Assembly (NCBI RefSeq): GCF_030296775.1
Contig: NZ_AP027742.1
Coordinates: forward strand, 1,798,001-1,862,000
Direction: 5' to 3'
From: Claveliimonas bilis
Lineage (GTDB): Bacteria > Bacillota > Clostridia > Lachnospirales > Lachnospiraceae
DNA: 64,000 bases
Every line of letters starts with the position of its first letter. Within the stretch, counting starts at the first letter, position 1. The notes below the pieces were generated by a model. That model had not been told where the DNA came from. It made no database searches and saw nothing but the letters and a program-made list of their open reading frames with translations. Below, piece by piece: positions 53,493 to 61,636 of the stretch. The position numbers were made by a program, and so were the translations under genes.

Positions 53493-53981
53493 TTATATCA
53501 GCTCCTTAATTCTTTTCAGCGTTTCATTGGCGGCAATTCCTATCAGCAGCCCTGTGATCACCCCTGCAATTAAAAGGACTGGAATATAGTACGCCACACT
53601 GAATGTTTCTACAACGATCATCGCGATGATCAGCTGTCCGATATTGTGAAATACTCCTCCGGCTATACTGACTCCCATTACACTGAATCCTCCTGCCTTC
53701 TTCAGGACTGCCATTACAGTAAGACTTAAAAGTCCCCCTGCAAGGCTGTAGAGGATAGCAAACATATTTCCGAACAGGAAGCCGGACAACACAACCCTTG
53801 TTATGGACAAAAGATAGGTCTCTTTCAGGCTCATCTTATAAAGCGCAATGACGATCATCAGATTGGCAAGTCCCAGTTTCACACCAGGGATCCCGATCTG
53901 GATAGGGATCAGTGATTCAACATAGCTGAATATCAGGGCCAGCGCTGTAAAAACACCGAAATATGCAACCCGGCTTTTCAC
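53493..53981 (-). CDS. Gx transporter family membrane protein (heptaprenyl diphosphate synthase component I-like)
   Basis: This 162-residue protein has about five membrane helices and Hpre_diP_synt_I family blocks ([58 protein letters not shown]). The fold is like ECF-transporter S components. Relatives named EetB occur in Listeria beside ApbE-type flavin transferases in extracellular electron transfer loci. Here it follows the NusG-II gene by 12 bases, opposite apbE. The substrate is unknown. Confidence 0.88.
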
Positions 53982-53993
53982 ACATATCCCTCC

Positions 53994-54365
53994 TTAGTTC
54001 GTCATGCCGTCCAACTCACTGTTGATATTTGATTCCACTTCCACAATAACCCGATTAGGCAGGCAGATAATATTCTCTCCGCTGGCGGACACTGCCTTCT
54101 GATGTACACAGAGCTGATCCGGACAATCCGCCTCCGTCATCTTGGCCTTTCCGTTTCTGATCTGCAGAATATTACTTCCATTATTTATGGTTATCTCCCG
54201 ATCCTCATTCAAAGGATAGGTCCCTTCTATTTTTCCATCCACCTTGACCACAGCGCTTCCCGAACCGGAATCTTTCAGTACCTGATGCAGTAAAAATGCA
54301 CCAGCCGCAACTACAAGGATAATAATGATCAATACAATATCTTTTTTGCTTAATGCCTTTTTCAT
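53994..54365 (-). CDS. NusG domain II-containing exported protein
   Basis: This 123-residue protein has an N-terminal membrane anchor (DIVLIIIILVVAAGAFLLH) and a NusG-II-type beta domain (REITINNGSNILQIRNGKAKMTEADCPDQLCVHQKAVSASG, then ENIICLPNRVIVEVE). The conserved Cys pair with His (CPDQLCVH) and the ICLPN motif are intact. Its own promoter drives it with the Gx protein and probably ruvAB. It is predicted outside the membrane and may be redox-related. Confidence 0.88.
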   Translation of the reverse strand: MKKALSKKDIVLIIIILVVAAGAFLLHQVLKDSGSGSAVVKVDGKIEGTYPLNEDREITINNGSNILQIRNGKAKMTEADCPDQLCVHQKAVSASGENIICLPNRVIVEVESNINSELDGMTN

Positions 54366-54444
54366 GTTTTTGCTACCACTTTCCTACCCCGCTTTTTCTC
54401 TGTCAAAATACGTTTTCAAAAGCAGAATATCGATATTCTACCCT

Positions 54445-54473
54445 ATTTTAGCATAACCGGCTTTTTTGTGCAA
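54445..54473 (-). promoter_or_regulatory. Promoter of the NusG-II/Gx/ruvAB operon
   Basis: On the minus strand TTGCAC is followed at 17 bp by TAAAAT, about 80 bases upstream of the NusG-II gene. It is divergent from the apbE promoter 25 bases away. Confidence 0.65.
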
Positions 54474-54496
54474 TCACATGTTCGATTCCCTCCATA

Positions 54497-54526
54497 TTGC
54501 AGGAGAATGCAATAATATGCTATAAT
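54497..54526 (+). promoter_or_regulatory. apbE promoter
   Basis: TTGCAG is followed at 18 bp by TATAAT, about 75 bases before the apbE ATG. Confidence 0.7.
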
Positions 54527-54601
54527 AGCATGGTGTCCTGCCGGATACGTAATTATGGGAATAAATTGGTTTTTATCAAAGATATTTATAAGGAGAACTT
54601 T

Positions 54602-55585
54602 ATGAAAAACAGAATAATTGCTGCTCTTACCGCGGCAGCTTTCATATGCATATCTCTGTCCGGATGTGCGGCTGCTTCAAAAGAGCCCATGACCTATACG
54701 GATACCGTATTTGACACCGTAGTTTCAATTACTGTCTATGACTCCACGGATCAGGAAATCCTGGATGAATGCAAATCGATGTGCCAGAAATATGACGCTA
54801 TGTTTTCTGCCACAAATCCTGACAGCGAGATATCCAGAATTAACCAGGCAGGCGGCAATCCGGTGGAGGTGTCTTCCGAGACAGCAACCCTGATCAAAAA
54901 AGGATTGTACTATGGTAAGCTTTCTAACGGCGCCTTTGACATTACCATCGGTAAAGTTTCCAGCCTGTGGGACTTCAAGGCAGAAAATCCGTCAGTCCCC
55001 GATTCCGCTGCTATTGCTTCCGCCCTTGAGCATGTAGACTATCAAAAAGTACTGGTCAGCGGAAACACTGTCACCATGCAGGATTCTCAGGCTGCCATTG
55101 ATCTGGGTGCAATAGCCAAAGGCTATATTGCAGACCGTCTTAAGGACTATTTGGAGGAAGAAGGAATACGGCATGCCAACATTAATCTCGGCGGAAATGT
55201 TCAGACAATCGGCGGAAAGCCTGATGGCTCCGCTTTCAACATCGGTATCCAGGAACCCTTTTCCGAAAGCGGGATCCCTCTTACTTCTGTTAAGATCAAA
55301 GACCAGTCCATTGTCACTTCCGGGACTTATCAGCGATATTTTGAAAAGGATGGAACCATCTATCATCATATCCTTGATCCAAAGACCGGTTATCCCTGCC
55401 AAAATGGTCTTTCCAGCGTTACGATCATCACAGACTCCTCTCTGACCGCCGACGCCCTCAGTACCACCTGCTTTGTACTGGGGCCTGAAGACGGACTGAA
55501 ACTTGTCAATCAGCTGGATAATGTAGACGCCGTCTTTATAGACAGTGAAAACGAGATCACTTATTCTACCAATTTTATGAAATAG
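54602..55585 (+). CDS. apbE: FAD:protein FMN transferase (ApbE) lipoprotein
   Basis: The ATG at 54602 behind AAGGAG gives 327 residues. It starts with a lipoprotein signal peptide (lipobox LSGC, Cys near 21). The ApbE domain shows YTDTVFDTVVSITVYD, FDITIGKVSSLWDF, AIDLGAIAKGYIADRL, NINLGGNVQTIGG and the catalytic-metal region HHILDPKTGYP. It transfers FMN from FAD to Thr of exported proteins. Likely targets lie in the Rnf complex encoded about 3 kb downstream (RnfG Thr173, RnfD Thr151). It is transcribed opposite to its neighbours, from its own promoter. Confidence 0.95.
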   Translation: MKNRIIAALTAAAFICISLSGCAAASKEPMTYTDTVFDTVVSITVYDSTDQEILDECKSMCQKYDAMFSATNPDSEISRINQAGGNPVEVSSETATLIKKGLYYGKLSNGAFDITIGKVSSLWDFKAENPSVPDSAAIASALEHVDYQKVLVSGNTVTMQDSQAAIDLGAIAKGYIADRLKDYLEEEGIRHANINLGGNVQTIGGKPDGSAFNIGIQEPFSESGIPLTSVKIKDQSIVTSGTYQRYFEKDGTIYHHILDPKTGYPCQNGLSSVTIITDSSLTADALSTTCFVLGPEDGLKLVNQLDNVDAVFIDSENEITYSTNFMK

Positions 55586-55598
55586 GAGAATACAGTAA

Positions 55599-55641
55599 AA
55601 GCTCTGCTTCAGATAGGGATTTTCCCTCTGAAGCAGAGCTT
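55599..55641. terminator. Bidirectional terminator after apbE
   Basis: AAGCTCTGCTTCAG and CTGAAGCAGAGCTT form a 14-bp perfect stem with a 15-base loop. CTCTTT follows on the plus strand and TTACTG on the minus strand. It separates apbE from the convergent 140-residue gene. Confidence 0.8.
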
Positions 55642-55672
55642 CTCTTTAGAAATTTTCTTTGTTCACCGTTGT

Positions 55673-56095
55673 CTAATAAACTCCATATTCCGGGATCATA
55701 GTTGCCACGGAAACTCCGAGAATAACAAAGAGTATAATACTCAGCACAAATACGACTGCATAAATGATCAGCCACGCCCGGCAGAAATTTCTTCTGTTTA
55801 CATTTCCATTCTTTCCAAATGCCCACACAAGATACAGCACCAGACCGACACATGGAATCATCCACGCAAGAATTGTCAGCACCCAGTCTCCCAAAGTCAT
55901 CGGACTTTGATCCATGTTAAACTGATTATCTACATGATAGTTTCCATTATCTCCCTGATAATAGTGATAACCGCTGTTATACTGATAACCTGCATTTGGA
56001 TCCGTATAAGTCTGGTTCTGGCTGCTTTGCTTATTCTGATTATCTGAGTCTGTCTTTTCTAAAATATCCGGTGTATTTTCAAAATTATTATCCAT
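55673..56095 (-). CDS. Hypothetical two-helix membrane protein with N/Q/Y-rich start
   Basis: I do not recognise this 140-residue protein. Residues 1-65 are a low-complexity, Asn/Gln/Tyr/Gly-rich segment (SQNQTYTDPNAGYQYNSGYH). Two helices follow (WVLTILAWMIPCVGLVLYLVWAFG and AWLIIYAVVFVLSIILFVILG) with RNFCRAW between them. The layout resembles small DUF4190/DUF805-like membrane proteins, with a disordered tail inside the cell. Confidence 0.75.
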   Translation of the reverse strand: MDNNFENTPDILEKTDSDNQNKQSSQNQTYTDPNAGYQYNSGYHYYQGDNGNYHVDNQFNMDQSPMTLGDWVLTILAWMIPCVGLVLYLVWAFGKNGNVNRRNFCRAWLIIYAVVFVLSIILFVILGVSVATMIPEYGVY

Positions 56096-56157
56096 TTGCA
56101 GCTCCTCCTGTTTTCTTTTATCACGCCTATTGTATCACAGGTATGGTACAAATACAA

Positions 56158-56613
56158 TTATTGTTTCACCAGCTCCCAAATATGATACAGCAGATTGTCA
56201 TAATAATAAGTCATAGGCGGGCAGTTTGGAAAATAAACATACATACGATAAATATAAAACAGGACCATACCTGCAATCAGCGCTCCTCCCGCCAATTTCA
56301 GATGAAAGGAAAGCCCGTCTCTCCCCTTTCCATATCTTTCATAAGCGGCGGCAAGCACCCAAAGGCCGATCAGAAATATAAAAGGATGCATTTCCCACGC
56401 TCTGCCAAAATCCAGATGCAGAACAGCAAGTCCTGCTCTTGTCAGTCCACAGGATGGGCAGGGAAATCCTGTCATATATACCAGCGGACATACACTTCCC
56501 AAAATTCTTCCTGACAATGCAAAATAGGCGATCACTGCAATAATCGCCCATTTTAACTCTGCAATATCTTTTTTTACCCGATAGCTTATCAGCTTCCAAT
56601 TTTCTTTTTTCAT
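56158..56613 (-). CDS. DUF2752 membrane protein
   Basis: The ATG at 56613 gives 151 residues but has no good Shine-Dalgarno; the open frame extends upstream into rnfB without a better start. The DUF2752 signature FPCPSCGLTRAGLAVLHLDFGRAWEMHP and three membrane helices are present. It is 19 bases after rnfB and so probably at the end of the rnf operon. The role is unknown. The CPSCG motif might bind a metal. Confidence 0.82.
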   Translation of the reverse strand: MKKENWKLISYRVKKDIAELKWAIIAVIAYFALSGRILGSVCPLVYMTGFPCPSCGLTRAGLAVLHLDFGRAWEMHPFIFLIGLWVLAAAYERYGKGRDGLSFHLKLAGGALIAGMVLFYIYRMYVYFPNCPPMTYYYDNLLYHIWELVKQ

Positions 56614-56632
56614 AAGCTTTTGTATGAAAATT

Positions 56633-57424
56633 CTATAAGATAATCTTTTTCGGACATTTCTCTGCACATTTTCCGCAGTTTGTACATTTAGCCGGATCAA
56701 TGTGTGCAATATTATCAACCACTTTAACAGCGTCGAATTCACAGACTTTTTCACACATCTTACATCCGATACAGCCTACAGAACATACGCTCATAACATC
56801 TTTCCCTTTATCTTTGGAGCTGCAGTTTACGAGATGCTTCTGTTCATACGGAACAAGTTCGATCAGATGTCTCGGACACGCTTCAATACATTTTCCACAT
56901 GCCTTACATGCATCTTTATCTACTACTGCCACTCCGTCAACAACATGGATCGCATCAAACGGACAGGCTTTCACACAGGATCCTTCACCCAGGCAGCCAT
57001 AAGCACAGGATTTCGGCCCGCCGTTCTGCATCATATTGATCATAACACAGTCATGGAGTCCGTAATACTCATAGCTCTGTTTTGCCTTTTCACATGTTCC
57101 GCCGCATTTTACAAATGCAACCTCATGTATCTGCTCTCCTGCTTCTACGCCCATAATATCCGCAATTTTAGCAGCTATCGGAGCGCCGCCTACCGGGCAG
57201 GCATTTACCGGAGCTTCCCCTGCTGCGATTGCTGCTGCAAGTCCGGAACATCCCGGATAACCGCATCCACCGCAGTTGTTTCCTGGCAGTACGCCAAGAA
57301 CTGCCTCTTCTTTTTCATCCACTTCTACTGCAAACTTTTTGTCTGCAAGCCCGAGAAAGATACCAATGAATAAACCAGTACCGCCTACAATGACTGCAGC
57401 CAAAATAATTCCTGTCATACTCAT
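56633..57424 (-). CDS. rnfB: Rnf complex subunit RnfB
   Basis: The 263-residue protein has an N-terminal membrane helix, then a four-Cys cluster domain (NNCGGCGYPGCSGLAAAI...ACPVGG). Several ferredoxin-type sets follow (GSCVKACPF, DACKACGKCIEACPR, GCIGCKMCEKVCEF, KCTNCGKCAEKCPK). It takes electrons from ferredoxin on the cytosolic side of Rnf. It is the last rnf gene in the clostridial order C-D-G-E-A-B. Confidence 0.97.
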   Translation of the reverse strand: MSMTGIILAAVIVGGTGLFIGIFLGLADKKFAVEVDEKEEAVLGVLPGNNCGGCGYPGCSGLAAAIAAGEAPVNACPVGGAPIAAKIADIMGVEAGEQIHEVAFVKCGGTCEKAKQSYEYYGLHDCVMINMMQNGGPKSCAYGCLGEGSCVKACPFDAIHVVDGVAVVDKDACKACGKCIEACPRHLIELVPYEQKHLVNCSSKDKGKDVMSVCSVGCIGCKMCEKVCEFDAVKVVDNIAHIDPAKCTNCGKCAEKCPKKIIL

Positions 57425-57437
57425 GTTACTCTTCCTC

Positions 57438-58016
57438 CTATATCAATCCTGAGAATCCGAAGAATGCAATCGCCATCAATGTAGAAGTCAAAAGCACGAT
57501 CGGCATTCCCTTAAAGGACTCCGGAATATCATTGTATTCCATTTTCTCTCTGATTCCTGCCAGAAGTACGATGGCGATCAGGTAACCAACGCCGGTGGCA
57601 AATCCGTTTACCACACTCTCGATCAGATTATAGCCGTCCTGAGCATTGTTGATCGCAACACCAAGCACTGCACAGTTTGTTGTGATCAGCGGCAGATAAA
57701 CGCCCAATGCATTGTAGAGAGATTTTACAAACTTTTTCAGGAACATCTCCACGATCTGAACCAGAGCAGCGATTACAAGAATAAAGACAATTGTCTTCAG
57801 GTAATCAAATCCTAACGGTTCCAAAATAAAATCATACAGGAGGCTGGCAACCAGAGAAGCCAGCGTAATTACAAAGATAACAGCTCCGCCCATGCCGACA
57901 GCAGTCTCAGTCTTTTTGGAAACGCCGAGGAAGGAACAGATTCCAAGGAACTGGCTGAGCACGACGTTACTTACAAGTGCAGAACCTACTGCAATTAAAA
58001 TCAAATTTCCCATCAT
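57438..58016 (-). CDS. rnfA: Rnf complex subunit RnfA
   Basis: This 192-residue protein has six membrane helices. The RnfA/NqrE half-channel motifs are seen in LVSNVVLSQFLGICSFLGVS and PLITTNCAVLGVAINN, where conserved Cys residues are thought to hold a cluster inside the membrane with RnfE. It starts eight bases after rnfE. Confidence 0.97.
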   Translation of the reverse strand: MMGNLILIAVGSALVSNVVLSQFLGICSFLGVSKKTETAVGMGGAVIFVITLASLVASLLYDFILEPLGFDYLKTIVFILVIAALVQIVEMFLKKFVKSLYNALGVYLPLITTNCAVLGVAINNAQDGYNLIESVVNGFATGVGYLIAIVLLAGIREKMEYNDIPESFKGMPIVLLTSTLMAIAFFGFSGLI

Positions 58017-58024
58017 TTCCCCTC

Positions 58025-58741
58025 CTATTCCTTATCTTTTCCGGCCGCTGACGGACATCCGCCGCATGTCTGGCAGTCCGCGCCGCATCCGGACTGGATT
58101 TTGGACGCATCTTTGCCTTTCTTTTCCATGTTGATCTTCACTTTGTTCTGGATTGCCGCAAGAAGCGCTAATACAAGGAATGCCCCAGGCGCCAGGATAA
58201 AGATCGTGATCGGTGTGTATCCTGCTGCTCCTGTCGCCTCATCTGCCAGAGGGAGGATCTGATAGCCAAAAGCCTGTCCTGCTCCGAGGATTTCCCGCAC
58301 AATACCGATAGCAATAAGGGCAACTGTGAATCCAAGTCCCATTCCAAGTCCATCAAAAATGGACGGAAGGACAGGATTTTTGGATGCATAGCTTTCTGCA
58401 CGTCCCAGAATAATACAGTTTACTACGATCAACGGAATATAAAGTCCCAGCGAATCGTAAAGATCCGGGGTAAATCCTTCCATCATGAAATCAACAATTG
58501 TTACAAAAGAAGCTACAACTACGATGAAAGCCGGCATCCGGACAGAATCCGGAATAATCTTGCGCAGCATGGAAATCAGCATGTTGGACATAACAAGCAC
58601 GAAGGTGGTGGAAAGTCCCATACCGATACCATTCATGGCAGAAGTTGTTACAGCAAGTGTCGGACACATACCGAGCAACAACACAAAAATAGGGTTTTCA
58701 TCTATAATACCATTTTTCAGTCTCTCGCCACATGTATTCAT
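58025..58741 (-). CDS. rnfE: Rnf complex subunit RnfE
   Basis: This 238-residue six-helix protein is the partner of RnfA (NPIFVLLLGMCPTLAVTTSAMNGIG, YIPLIVVNCIILGRAESYASKN), with the paired intramembrane Cys motif. The tail beyond the last helix (SGCGADCQTCGGCPSAAG) is rich in Cys, which is unusual for RnfE but seen in some clostridia as far as I recall. Confidence 0.96.
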   Translation of the reverse strand: MNTCGERLKNGIIDENPIFVLLLGMCPTLAVTTSAMNGIGMGLSTTFVLVMSNMLISMLRKIIPDSVRMPAFIVVVASFVTIVDFMMEGFTPDLYDSLGLYIPLIVVNCIILGRAESYASKNPVLPSIFDGLGMGLGFTVALIAIGIVREILGAGQAFGYQILPLADEATGAAGYTPITIFILAPGAFLVLALLAAIQNKVKINMEKKGKDASKIQSGCGADCQTCGGCPSAAGKDKE

Positions 58742-58753
58742 CTCAACTACCTC

Positions 58754-59338
58754 CTAAAATGCATTCTGGAAATAAGCGATTGCTGCGTTTACACCGCCTG
58801 TCACCGCTCTTGATGTGATAGTGGCACCGCTGATAGCATCGATAGGTTCCCCTTCTCCGCCGTCTTTGGAAACGTAGAACTGATCTGCCTGTACGCCTAC
58901 ATACTGTCCGTAAAAGGACTCTTCCCTTGCTTTCATACCGAGACCTGCTGTCTCAGATATTGAAAGGAAAGAAATTCCGCTGATGCTTCCATCGGCTGTG
59001 ATACCCACTGTCATCTGGATATCTCCGCCGTAACCTTCCCCGTCTGTAACCGTAATGACATATCCTGCTTCACCGCCGTCCACAGCGCTTACTTCATCAA
59101 TCGATCCCTCAATTCCCGCGTCGGAAATTGCCTGCTTTGCGATATCCTGATCTACATCTACTGTCTCAAACGCATCAATATCAGCGTCCGGGAATACCGC
59201 CTGCCATGCTTCCTTCTTTGCCTCCTCGTTCGCCTGAGCGATCGGATCCTTTGTCACTTCATATGCCACTCCCAGCAAAAGTCCGGAAATCAAAGTAATA
59301 ACTGTAAGAATAATCGTATTTCTGATAATCTTGTTCAT
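58754..59338 (-). CDS. rnfG: Rnf complex subunit RnfG
   Basis: The 194-residue protein has one N-terminal helix and an extracytosolic FMN-binding domain. The flavinylation motif SGAT is at residues 170-173, in DAISGATITS, so Thr173 should carry covalent FMN added by ApbE. The start overlaps rnfD by one base. Confidence 0.97.
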   Translation of the reverse strand: MNKIIRNTIILTVITLISGLLLGVAYEVTKDPIAQANEEAKKEAWQAVFPDADIDAFETVDVDQDIAKQAISDAGIEGSIDEVSAVDGGEAGYVITVTDGEGYGGDIQMTVGITADGSISGISFLSISETAGLGMKAREESFYGQYVGVQADQFYVSKDGGEGEPIDAISGATITSRAVTGGVNAAIAYFQNAF

Positions 59339-60291
59339 TATTTTTCTCCTCCTTTACCAAATGGTTTTGGAAGAGTAACCTTCTCAATCAACGGAACCAG
59401 AAGGTTACTGATGATGATTGCATAGGACACACCTTCTGCCGATCCGCCGAAAATACGGAACAGACCTGTCAAAAGACCAAGCACGATACCATAGACATAC
59501 TGTCCTTTCTTCGTGATCGGTGATGTTACATAGTCTGTTGCCATGAACCATGCACCAAGCATCAGACCACCGCCGCACAGATGAGCTGTGATATACTGCG
59601 GATCAAAAAATCCAATCTCCGGATGCGCTACATGTCCGAAAATTCCTACAAAAATCACGAATGTCACAATATATGTACCTGGGATCCTAAGATCAATGAC
59701 TCCCATTAAGATCAGGAAAATAGCTCCGATCACAATGGCAATCACAGAAGTCTCACCAATGGTTCCCGGAATATTTCCGATCAGCATATCCATTGTGTTG
59801 ACCTGATCCAAAGCGCCCTCTTTTACATAGGCAAGTGGGGTCGGTCCGGTAATGCCGTCATAGACAAAGCTTGTCATTGGTCCGGTAAAGGAAAGCAAAA
59901 GGAAACATCTTGCTCCCAGAGCCGGGTTCATAAAGTTCTGTCCAAGTCCTCCGAAAAGCTGTTTTACAATAAGAATACCGAATACGCTTCCCAGCGCGCC
60001 CATCCAAAGCGGCGCTGTCGGAGGCATGTTAAGCCCCAGCAGAAGACCGGTCACAACAGCACTGAAATCTCCTACCGTTACTTTTTTGTGCATAAGTTTC
60101 TCATAAATAAATTCTGTTAATACTGCCGCTGCCGTTGTGCTGATCAGCATAAGCAGAGCAGGTACGCCAAAGTTATATACTCCGAAAGCAGATGCCGGAA
60201 GCAGTGCAATAACTACCATGAGCATGATATTGCCAGAAGTAACCTTGGAACGTATATGTGGTGAAGACGAAATATTTAACTGATTCTCCAC
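59338..60291 (-). CDS. rnfD: Rnf complex subunit RnfD
   Basis: This 317-residue protein has about nine membrane helices. The flavinylation site is in DGITGPTPLA with Thr151. A Pro replaces the Ala of the usual [ST]GA[ST] motif. It is the second Rnf subunit with covalent FMN, and its context is normal. Confidence 0.96.
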   Translation of the reverse strand: MENQLNISSSPHIRSKVTSGNIMLMVVIALLPASAFGVYNFGVPALLMLISTTAAAVLTEFIYEKLMHKKVTVGDFSAVVTGLLLGLNMPPTAPLWMGALGSVFGILIVKQLFGGLGQNFMNPALGARCFLLLSFTGPMTSFVYDGITGPTPLAYVKEGALDQVNTMDMLIGNIPGTIGETSVIAIVIGAIFLILMGVIDLRIPGTYIVTFVIFVGIFGHVAHPEIGFFDPQYITAHLCGGGLMLGAWFMATDYVTSPITKKGQYVYGIVLGLLTGLFRIFGGSAEGVSYAIIISNLLVPLIEKVTLPKPFGKGGEK

Positions 60292-60316
60292 TTTTGTTCA
60301 CCTCTTCCTCTCTTTA

Positions 60317-61636
60317 TTACTTTTTCTTGCGGTTCGCAAGAGCAATTTTCCTCATAGATCCTATAGACTGTTTCAGCTGGCGTTTTGCCGGACATACGTA
60401 ACTGCAGCAGCCGCATTCCACACATTCCAGCCCATTCTGCTTTGTAAAGAGCTCTTCATCATGATGCTCTGCATAATCCGCAAGTCTGGAAGGGATCAGC
60501 CTGCTCGGACAGACCTCTACACACCTTCCGCAGTTAATGCAGGCTGTCGGCTCAAATTTCGCCACCTCGTCTTTTGAAAGACAAAGGATAGATGAAGATG
60601 TCTTTGTCACAGGAGTATCCAGAGTAAACATAGCAAATCCCATCATCGGACCGCCGGAGATGACCTTCTCCGGTTCACCCTTGAATCCGCCTGCAGCTTC
60701 CACAAGTTCCATCTGGTTTGTTCCAAATAAGGCCTTAAAATTGCCAGGTTCATTCACTCCATCGCCGCTGACTGTTACAACTCGCTCCATAGACGGGATA
60801 CCTTTTACAACTGCCTGGTATACATTGATCATTGTCTCAACGTTGTCTACCACGCATCCTGCATCGGCCGGAAGCATAGTGGAATTAATTGCCCGTCCGG
60901 TTGTTGCATAGATGAGCTGACGCTCTGCTCCCTGGGGATACTTCGTTTTCAGAGGCATAACTTCCATGCGTTTCTCATCTTTCACAAGTTCCTGAAGCTT
61001 TGCGATACAGTCTGGTTTATTATCTTCTACAGCAAAAATACCTTTTGCATTGTCAAACAGAGATAAGATCACCTTCATTCCGCCTACAAGCAGCTCCGGC
61101 GTCTCGATCATTCTTCTGTAGTCAGCAGTGATGTACGGCTCACATTCCGCACAGTTTGCTATAATGTAGTCAATTTTATCAGGCTCTTTCGGGGACAGTT
61201 TCACTCTTGTGGGGAATCCTGCACCTCCCATACCTACAATACCGGCTTCGCCGATCGCATTTAAGATCTCTTCCTTTGTCATTTCTTCCAAAGGCTTTAC
61301 AGGGCCGTATTCTACTTCTTCGTACTGTTCGTCATTTTCAACTACAATACAGTTTACTTTTGCTCCTGTAGGATTAAAATGAGGCTCGATCGCTTTCACT
61401 GTTCCGGAAACAGATGCATAGATCGGAGCTGAGACAAACCCGCCGGCCTCCGCAATTTTCTGCCCCCTGAGTACATGATCACCGACAGACACAACCGGAG
61501 CTGCCGGAGCACCGATATGCTGTGAGAGCGGATAAACCAGGTTCCCTTTTGGCTTAACTTCAGTAATCGCCTTGTCCTTGGCCAGGCGCTTACCATCATC
61601 GGGATGAATACCACCCTTAAATGTTAATAATGCCAT
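60317..61636 (-). CDS. rnfC: Rnf complex subunit RnfC
   Basis: The ATG at 61636 after GGAAAACGAG gives 439 residues. The NADH/FMN-binding domain shows GIVGMGGAGFPTRVKL and YIIANCAECEPYITAD. Two 4Fe4S motifs lie near the end (ACINCGRCVEVCPSRL and CVECGCCSYVCPAKR). It oxidises or reduces NAD on the cytosolic side and opens the rnf operon. The Rnf complex couples ferredoxin:NAD oxidoreduction to Na+ or H+ pumping. Confidence 0.97.
   Translation of the reverse strand: MALLTFKGGIHPDDGKRLAKDKAITEVKPKGNLVYPLSQHIGAPAAPVVSVGDHVLRGQKIAEAGGFVSAPIYASVSGTVKAIEPHFNPTGAKVNCIVVENDEQYEEVEYGPVKPLEEMTKEEILNAIGEAGIVGMGGAGFPTRVKLSPKEPDKIDYIIANCAECEPYITADYRRMIETPELLVGGMKVILSLFDNAKGIFAVEDNKPDCIAKLQELVKDEKRMEVMPLKTKYPQGAERQLIYATTGRAINSTMLPADAGCVVDNVETMINVYQAVVKGIPSMERVVTVSGDGVNEPGNFKALFGTNQMELVEAAGGFKGEPEKVISGGPMMGFAMFTLDTPVTKTSSSILCLSKDEVAKFEPTACINCGRCVEVCPSRLIPSRLADYAEHHDEELFTKQNGLECVECGCCSYVCPAKRQLKQSIGSMRKIALANRKKK

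Follow-up and report, generated by a model that had tools for sequence, protein, structure and literature searches.

In Listeria monocytogenes, EetB (PF07456) binds flavin adenine dinucleotide (FAD), resembles the S components of energy-coupling factor (ECF) transporters and is needed for export of FAD to the ApbE-type protein FmnB (Rivera-Lugo et al. 2023, PMC9973259). In the same study EetB was required for flavinylation of PplA, the T component (ECF-T) FmnA was essential for flavinylation, and a clean deletion of eetA left extracellular electron transfer (EET) activity unchanged. The genome counts given there are 3,328 with eetB close to eetA and 2,169 with eetB close to apbE; in 572 Clostridia genomes, Rnf genes were among its neighbours. 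How EetB delivers flavin to ApbE was left open by these authors. The present analysis concerns a comparable locus of Claveliimonas bilis, in a window of 64,000 nucleotides (bases 1,798,001 to 1,862,000 of the single contig, NZ_AP027742.1, of the 3.11-Mb genome GCF_030296775.1). Eight kilobases of this window very probably (roughly 85%) hold an Rnf complex together with the set of proteins that would give it covalently bound flavin, through export by EetB and transfer by ApbE; a docking role of EetA is weighed separately.

The exporter EetB-FmnA-EcfAA' of L. monocytogenes (PMC9973259) and the system considered here share an EetA-EetB pair with apbE nearby, an ECF-like fold of EetB and, presumably, the supply of an ApbE. 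They differ in the target, which is PplA in Listeria and would be Rnf here, in the T component (dedicated FmnA in Listeria, only a housekeeping-type EcfT and a CbiQ here) and in the end of EetA, DDPIISS in Listeria and LDGMTN in the window. The eetB-Rnf clusters of the 572 Clostridia genomes have the same gene content and proposed role, with the particularity that the pair lies here between apbE and ruvAB. Since that many genomes carry eetB near Rnf genes, the combination of apbE, eetAB and Rnf has already been described as a kind; the locus is a member of it and is ordinary for the family Lachnospiraceae. The genes, motifs, folds, co-inheritance with Rnf and tail conservation reported below come from the present analysis.

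Rnf complex and candidate targets of ApbE

The Rnf complex was complete, with six subunit genes, rnfCDGEAB, adjacent on one strand. According to the list of open reading frames (ORFs) and the Pfam and TIGR scans, the minus strand carries rnfC, D, G, E, A and B, followed by genes for a DUF2752 protein and a 140-residue protein (Table 1). The opposite strand carries apbE, beyond which eetA and then eetB, both divergent from apbE, run into ruvA and ruvB (the last two named by eye). The TIGR scan covered the RnfA, B, C, D and G models, the RnfE model not being among those scanned, and all five matched over their cut-offs; the Pfam models Rnf-Nqr, FMN_bind and NQR2_RnfD_RnfE matched RnfA, RnfE, RnfG and RnfD. 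A preliminary description of this DNA, made from its letters and ORFs, had proposed a flavin-transfer neighbourhood composed of NusG-II and Gx proteins, a divergent apbE and Rnf. Its gene placements agreed with the Pfam and TIGR models, and its Gx and NusG_II proteins are of the EetB and EetA types, respectively.

ApbE was full-length, with positions 1–266 of the 266 in profile PF02424 aligned, and a lipobox-like LSGC noticed by eye points to an exported lipoprotein. The sequences S170-G-A-T173 in RnfG and T148-G-P-T151 in RnfD were present at the expected sites, which bears out the preliminary assignment of Thr173 and Thr151, and both proteins are likely ApbE targets. RnfG was the sole match of FMN_bind (PF04205; FMN, flavin mononucleotide) in the whole genome at E 0.001, and Rnf is therefore the likely customer of the flavin supply; the same search recovered no FMN_bind lipoprotein of the PplA type. 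Four related loci, that of Fusicatenibacter saccharivorans (L117) and L092, L115 and L122, had an extra RnfG-like (FMN_bind) match between apbE and eetAB, which suggests a further flavinylated target there.

EetB as a candidate FAD exporter

The window EetB matched PF07456 with 144.8 bits, the cut-off being 30. Its residues 2–162 showed 100% identity to an EetB sequence recorded for C. bilis. An AlphaFold2 model built with 53 relatives (mean predicted local distance difference test score, pLDDT, 92.5) was compared with known structures using Foldseek, and ranks 1–10 were all chains of ECF transporters. The first was the flavin-specific TmRibU (template modelling score, TM, 0.75; probability 1.00; E 0.02). 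The E values of these ten matches ranged from 0.02 to 0.6, none being below 0.02, and the evidence lies in their agreement. Seven were titled S component, S subunit or RibU, and 7nnt_C belongs to an ECF complex; match 4m58 we take to be an ECF-type S subunit as well. Match 4huq is named as an ECF transporter in PMC9973259. By its family, its modelled fold and analogy with Listeria, the window EetB would thus be an FAD-exporting subunit of the ECF-S type. The preliminary description had suggested that Gx might belong to an additional membrane redox module, an assignment that does not fit the published exporter function of EetB and the ECF chains that were the best folds of the window protein.

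Two ECF-T matches (PF02361), both CbiQ-type, were found in the genome. According to neighbours named by eye, one has a TruA-like ORF and two ABC ATPase ORFs next to it, the usual housekeeping set, and the other stands in a CbiMNQO-like set of the cobalt type. Only 291 of 4,214 eetB genomes were reported to have ECF-T genes near eetB (PMC9973259), so that a dedicated ECF-T is not a defining feature of EetB. An exporter in C. bilis would depend either on the housekeeping module or on an ECF-T not picked up by the model.

Co-inheritance and gene order

The distribution of the genes was analysed across the family to which the window belongs, in 120 genomes with one per genus; the counts leave out eetB and rnfC matches under the curated cut-offs, one eetA row under its cut-off and split fragments (one eetB, two apbE). 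All four genes, eetA, eetB, apbE and rnfC, were found in 107 genomes and all but eetA in one (G044); two had rnfC and apbE without eetAB, two had apbE alone and eight had none. Presence or absence of eetB and rnfC agreed in 118 of the 120 genomes: eetB occurred in 108 of 110 genomes with rnfC and in none of the ten without it (Fisher p 6e-13, relatedness ignored). Each of the 108 eetB genomes also had apbE and rnfC.

Regarding position, 88 of the 107 genomes with both genes had eetB and eetA no more than 1 kb apart. Distances to the other partners were larger: rnfC was within 10 kb of eetB in 42 of 108 genomes, and either apbE or rnfC was near it in 63 of 108, counts that broken contigs lower. 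The divergent order apbE-eetA-eetB-ruvA was kept in 23 of 80 named loci, including those of Dorea, Mediterraneibacter and Hespellia; these loci are the closest relatives found, are not independent and include one (L044) nearly identical to the window. This order and the agreement of eetB with rnfC show that the grouping of these genes is more than chance. Outside the family, eetA was found in 150 of 196 genomes of a class sample and apbE in 149, with six genomes having eetA without detected apbE and five apbE without eetA. The corresponding numbers in a phylum sample of 199 genomes were 124, 133, four and 13.

Several observations weigh against the proposed supply of flavin to Rnf by EetB and ApbE. 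Two family genomes (G041 and G081) had rnfC and apbE and, in these assemblies, no eetAB, so that the pair was either dispensable or missed. No clear candidate for another FAD exporter was seen by eye among the ORFs around their rnf and apbE genes (L039, the second apbE of G041, not included). Likewise, the five class and 13 phylum genomes with apbE and without eetA point to a pair that is dispensable in some hosts or that escaped detection there. In the family, eetB and apbE were within 10 kb of each other in only 49 of 108 genomes, a count also lowered by broken contigs. In C. bilis itself, the PF02361 search returned no FmnA-like dedicated ECF-T, and a second apbE (genome positions 3,056,648–3,057,460), beside a membrane protein that looks DUF4405-type by eye, may serve other targets. 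Finally, a working model of electron flow in Lactiplantibacillus plantarum, which is considered below, gives EetA another role. The finding that would speak against the preliminary description, namely independence of NusG-II and Gx from apbE in related genomes, was contradicted as far as presence is concerned and holds in part for position.

The C-terminal tail of EetA

The window EetA carries a PF07009 domain and an N-terminal helix, and eetB is adjacent to its gene. In its AlphaFold2 model (pLDDT 90.6), the single N-terminal helix is followed by a beta domain with cysteines 81, 86 and 101, a linker and a C-terminal tail of low confidence (65 and 55 in the last blocks). A relative of solved structure, 4ESN, matched it with TM 0.94 by target length and 60% identity in the aligned domain. 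This protein (RUMGNA_02503 of Ruminococcus gnavus, titled DUF1312 family protein) has a sequence ending in SELDGIVN; the structure library entry holds 77–78 of its 104 residues, and its tail is probably disordered in the crystal. Because the N-terminus of the window EetA consists of a basic stretch and one helix, its domain and tail would face outwards, where ApbE would be anchored.

The window EetA was aligned with 68 relatives, of which one was identical to it, and the three cysteines were invariant in 69 of 69 sequences. Equally invariant was an aspartate near the C-terminus (D119), located after a variable linker. All but one of these proteins ended three or four residues past it, with mostly A, G, S or T, then V, I or M, then A, T, V or S, the usual ending being hydrophobic-D-[A/G]-[V/I]-[S/T/A/V]-x. 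Two patterns were derived, a strict one, [VILMFYP]D[AGSTIV][VIMLA][STAV] followed by at most one residue, and a loose one, D-x-hydrophobic within the last residues. The controls were 2,541 non-overlapping ORFs and, taken from these loci, 916 sequences belonging to 14 other gene families. The strict tail was present in 172 of 339 distinct EetA and in none of the 916 or the 2,541 controls. The loose tail was present in 277 of the 339, above a background of 29/916 and 135/2,541. Before distinct EetA and motifs were counted, the window copies (L001, L015, L033, L145) were removed, as were sequences repeating the last 60 residues of another; L044 was retained despite its identical EetA. Among class and phylum loci, the loose tail was found in 185 of 239, the other 54 having none (44) or a variant (10); L145 and duplicates are kept in this count.

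Synonymous codons vary at each position of the tail, so that the protein sequence is what is conserved. An artefact of a ribosome-binding site was rejected as a cause of the tail on account of this variation and of the retention of the tail in natural EetB-EetA fusions. By eye, five such fusions (L078, L251, L254, L256, L257) have EetA at the C-terminal side with the tail kept, and one (L253) has no tail.

The tail was also found in distant hosts. A spirochaete EetA located beside its own Gx and ApbE had the strict form (EEYDALTN) and the NusG_II proteins of two Fusobacteriota had the loose form. It was weaker or absent in Bacilli, with the Listeria ending matching the loose pattern only and that of Enterococcus raffinosus (GEPGSVIY) matching neither. 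In four other Bacilli loci (L266, L270, L271, L272), NusG_II proteins lacked the first two cysteines and no eetB match was found in the fetched stretch; three had no D-tail, and the ending of L270, TDLIVPN, agrees with the loose pattern but not with the strict one. The conservation of the EetA tail is genuine. No description of this tail, or of an ApbE pseudosubstrate, was recognised among the papers listed by searches of an open-access library; the terms EetB and NusG do not occur in PMC8238504 and PMC11334425.

Likeness of the tail to the ApbE motif

The ApbE flavinylation motif is given as D-[GAIQ]-[IALVF]-[ST]-G-A-[ST] in the part of PMC10722498 considered here, and as beginning with a strictly conserved Asp in the corresponding part of PMC12052999. 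The FMN_bind ORFs of the collected loci were in line with it: 50 of 67 had D-x-x-[ST]-G-A-[ST], I, V or L preceded the aspartate in 49 of these 50, and the following columns were mostly A/T/G, I/L/V and S/T. The EetA tail has the same start, matching the first three to four positions of the motif and the preceding hydrophobic residue, and it stops before the acceptor Thr, ahead of the G or about at it. Some longer tails reach this G (DAVTGR, DAVSGGGAE), and the full D-x-x-[ST]-G-A-[ST] was found in 0 of 230 EetA. The form D[GAIQ][IALVF][STA] occurred in 93 of 194 EetA (those of the 230 with D at -5 or -4), compared with a mean of 14 and a maximum of 27 in 2,000 permutations. Tails with the published [ST] and at most one further residue occurred in 57 of 230 EetA and in 0 of 2,288 ORFs.

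Based on this likeness, it can tentatively be proposed that EetA acts as an adaptor. Its acceptor-less tail would mimic the motif and dock ApbE at the EetB exporter, which would keep the hand-over of FAD local and prevent its loss to the medium. The odds of such docking are rated well short of even, because three sequence tests were non-significant, many tail-less EetA coexist with ApbE and the published accounts of the motif aspartate are split. The other reading of the tail, which is credible and only a little short of an even chance, is that it binds some partner such as EetB or the ECF module instead of ApbE, and that its likeness to the short motif is a convergence.

Several comparisons gave docking no support and weigh on the side of another partner. 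No covariation was seen between the aspartate of the tail and that of the FMN_bind motif found at its locus (34/7/6/2 loci). Tail presence was not tied to the presence of EetB or ApbE in the fetched stretch (91/24 vs 17/7, p 0.42; 50/17 vs 8/5, p 0.33, for longer stretches), although many stretches extended only 1.5 kb on each side and one row of weak E value was dropped. Where ApbE was not detected, the tail was no less frequent at a significant level than where it was (6/9 vs 179/230, p 0.43); the genomes of the former kind were picked by eye and then checked against the lists, and one (G271) with a weak EetA match was left out. Besides, 51 of the 230 EetA that occur together with ApbE lack the loose tail. 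A minor effect of replacing the motif aspartate in one ApbE substrate, mentioned in the part of the review PMC12052999 that was considered, adds to this side.

Docking is favoured by the residues after the aspartate, which keep the order of the motif far beyond the permuted values, and by the longer tails that retain its G. In disagreement with the review, the motif aspartate is called essential for ApbE in PMC10722498, of which again a part was considered. The six tailed genomes without detected ApbE all carry FMN_bind, so that their ApbE may have fallen in an assembly gap. Both genomes with neither ApbE nor FMN_bind (G405 and G416, n=2) were tail-less; the remaining tail-less one (G445) has FMN_bind.

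Redox and prenyl synthase readings

The preliminary description had suggested a further redox module in the membrane, made up of NusG_II and Gx and exchanging electrons with Rnf, as in Listeria-like EET. The families are those of the Listeria EET locus, and the invariance of the three cysteines of EetA would suit a redox role. In addition, a double deletion of eetA and eetB in L. plantarum abolished the riboflavin-dependent current and lowered iron reduction, and its authors' working model routes electrons through EetA (PMC9888254, from the part of the paper considered). The deletion also removes the exporter, however, and neither gene alone restored wild-type activity, the authors suggesting a combined function for EetA and EetB (same part of PMC9888254). 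A place of EetA in an electron route thus draws some support from this study, which a mutant lacking eetB as well does not secure. In Listeria, EetB is the FAD exporter and EET activity was kept in the clean eetA deletion (PMC9973259). No PplA-like FMN_bind protein was found in the C. bilis genome, no cofactor-binding redox family was matched by Pfam in EetA or EetB, and in the NusG_II proteins of the two Fusobacteriota the three cysteines are partly or wholly missing. Altogether a redox module is improbable, and for Gx it was rejected on the grounds of the exporter function of EetB and the lack of a PplA-like match. No Ndh2 or demethylmenaquinone genes were recognised by eye among the ORFs of 48–64 kb, where no search was aimed at them.

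That Gx is component I of heptaprenyl diphosphate synthase, in quinone synthesis, is suggested by the Pfam name of PF07456, by the polyprenyl synthetase encoded next to Listeria eetB and by the listing of EetB/DmkB under demethylmenaquinone synthesis in L. plantarum (PMC9888254, in part), but this was rejected as hardly conceivable given the ECF-like fold of the window EetB, the FAD binding and export phenotype of EetB (PMC9973259) and its co-inheritance with rnfC, no prenyl synthase having been seen by eye among the 48–64 kb ORFs, where no search for one was made.

Other features of the locus

Coordinates are collected in Table 1. The inverted repeat located 3' of apbE is a possible terminator between the convergent apbE and rnf genes. 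The two genes between rnfB and apbE (55673–56613) are recurrent among relatives. The DUF2752 frame probably starts at an inner ATG near 56613 and not at the GTG overlapping rnfB.

Table 1. Features of the Rnf and flavin-supply locus of C. bilis (positions in the window)
Feature	Position	Strand	Evidence
eetB (Gx transporter, PF07456), 162 residues, GTG start	53493..53981	-	Pfam E 2.5e-42
eetA (NusG_II, PF07009)	53994..54365	-	Pfam E 1.4e-32
EetA C-terminal tail, L118-D119-G-M-T-N123	53997..54014	-	sequence comparison
apbE, FAD:protein FMN transferase, probable lipoprotein	54602..55585	+	PF02424 E 1.3e-96; lipobox LSGC by eye
13-bp inverted repeat 3' of apbE, arms 55601-55613 / 55627-55639	55601..55639		read in sequence; automated scan gave inner part only
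140-residue protein, membrane protein by eye	55673..56095	-	no Pfam family; relatives in 9/80 loci
DUF2752 protein (start inferred)	56158..56613	-	PF10825 E 1.7e-16; relatives in 10/80 loci
rnfB	56633..57424	-	TIGR01944 over cut-off
rnfA	57438..58016	-	TIGR01943 over cut-off
rnfE	58025..58741	-	PF02508 E 1.6e-68; named by operon position
rnfG, motif DAISGAT with T173	58754..59338	-	TIGR01947 over cut-off
rnfD, motif DGITGPT with T151	59338..60291	-	TIGR01946 over cut-off
rnfC	60317..61636	-	TIGR01945 over cut-off

Proposed mechanism and implications

FAD export by EetB was demonstrated in Listeria, and we infer that the same process would operate here. EetB, with an ECF energizing module, would carry cytosolic FAD across the membrane to its outer face; this module would be the housekeeping EcfAA'T, whose T component is the sole general ECF-T found. 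The lipoprotein ApbE would take the FMN half of the exported FAD and attach it to RnfG at Thr173 and to RnfD at Thr151. EetA would be a single-pass partner of EetB at the outer face, where its flexible C-terminus may hold ApbE near the exporter, a step judged apart from the main explanation.

A published set for FAD export and flavinylation would in this way be linked to Rnf, which is central to energy conversion in gut anaerobes. The conserved tail makes the role of EetA testable and bears on the hand-over of flavin to ApbE. The different ending of the Listeria EetA may or may not explain the lack of a phenotype of the eetA deletion. If docking proves true, the EetA family, which stands beside eetB in more than 3,000 genomes, would gain a role and the targeted delivery of a cofactor across the membrane would gain a mechanism.

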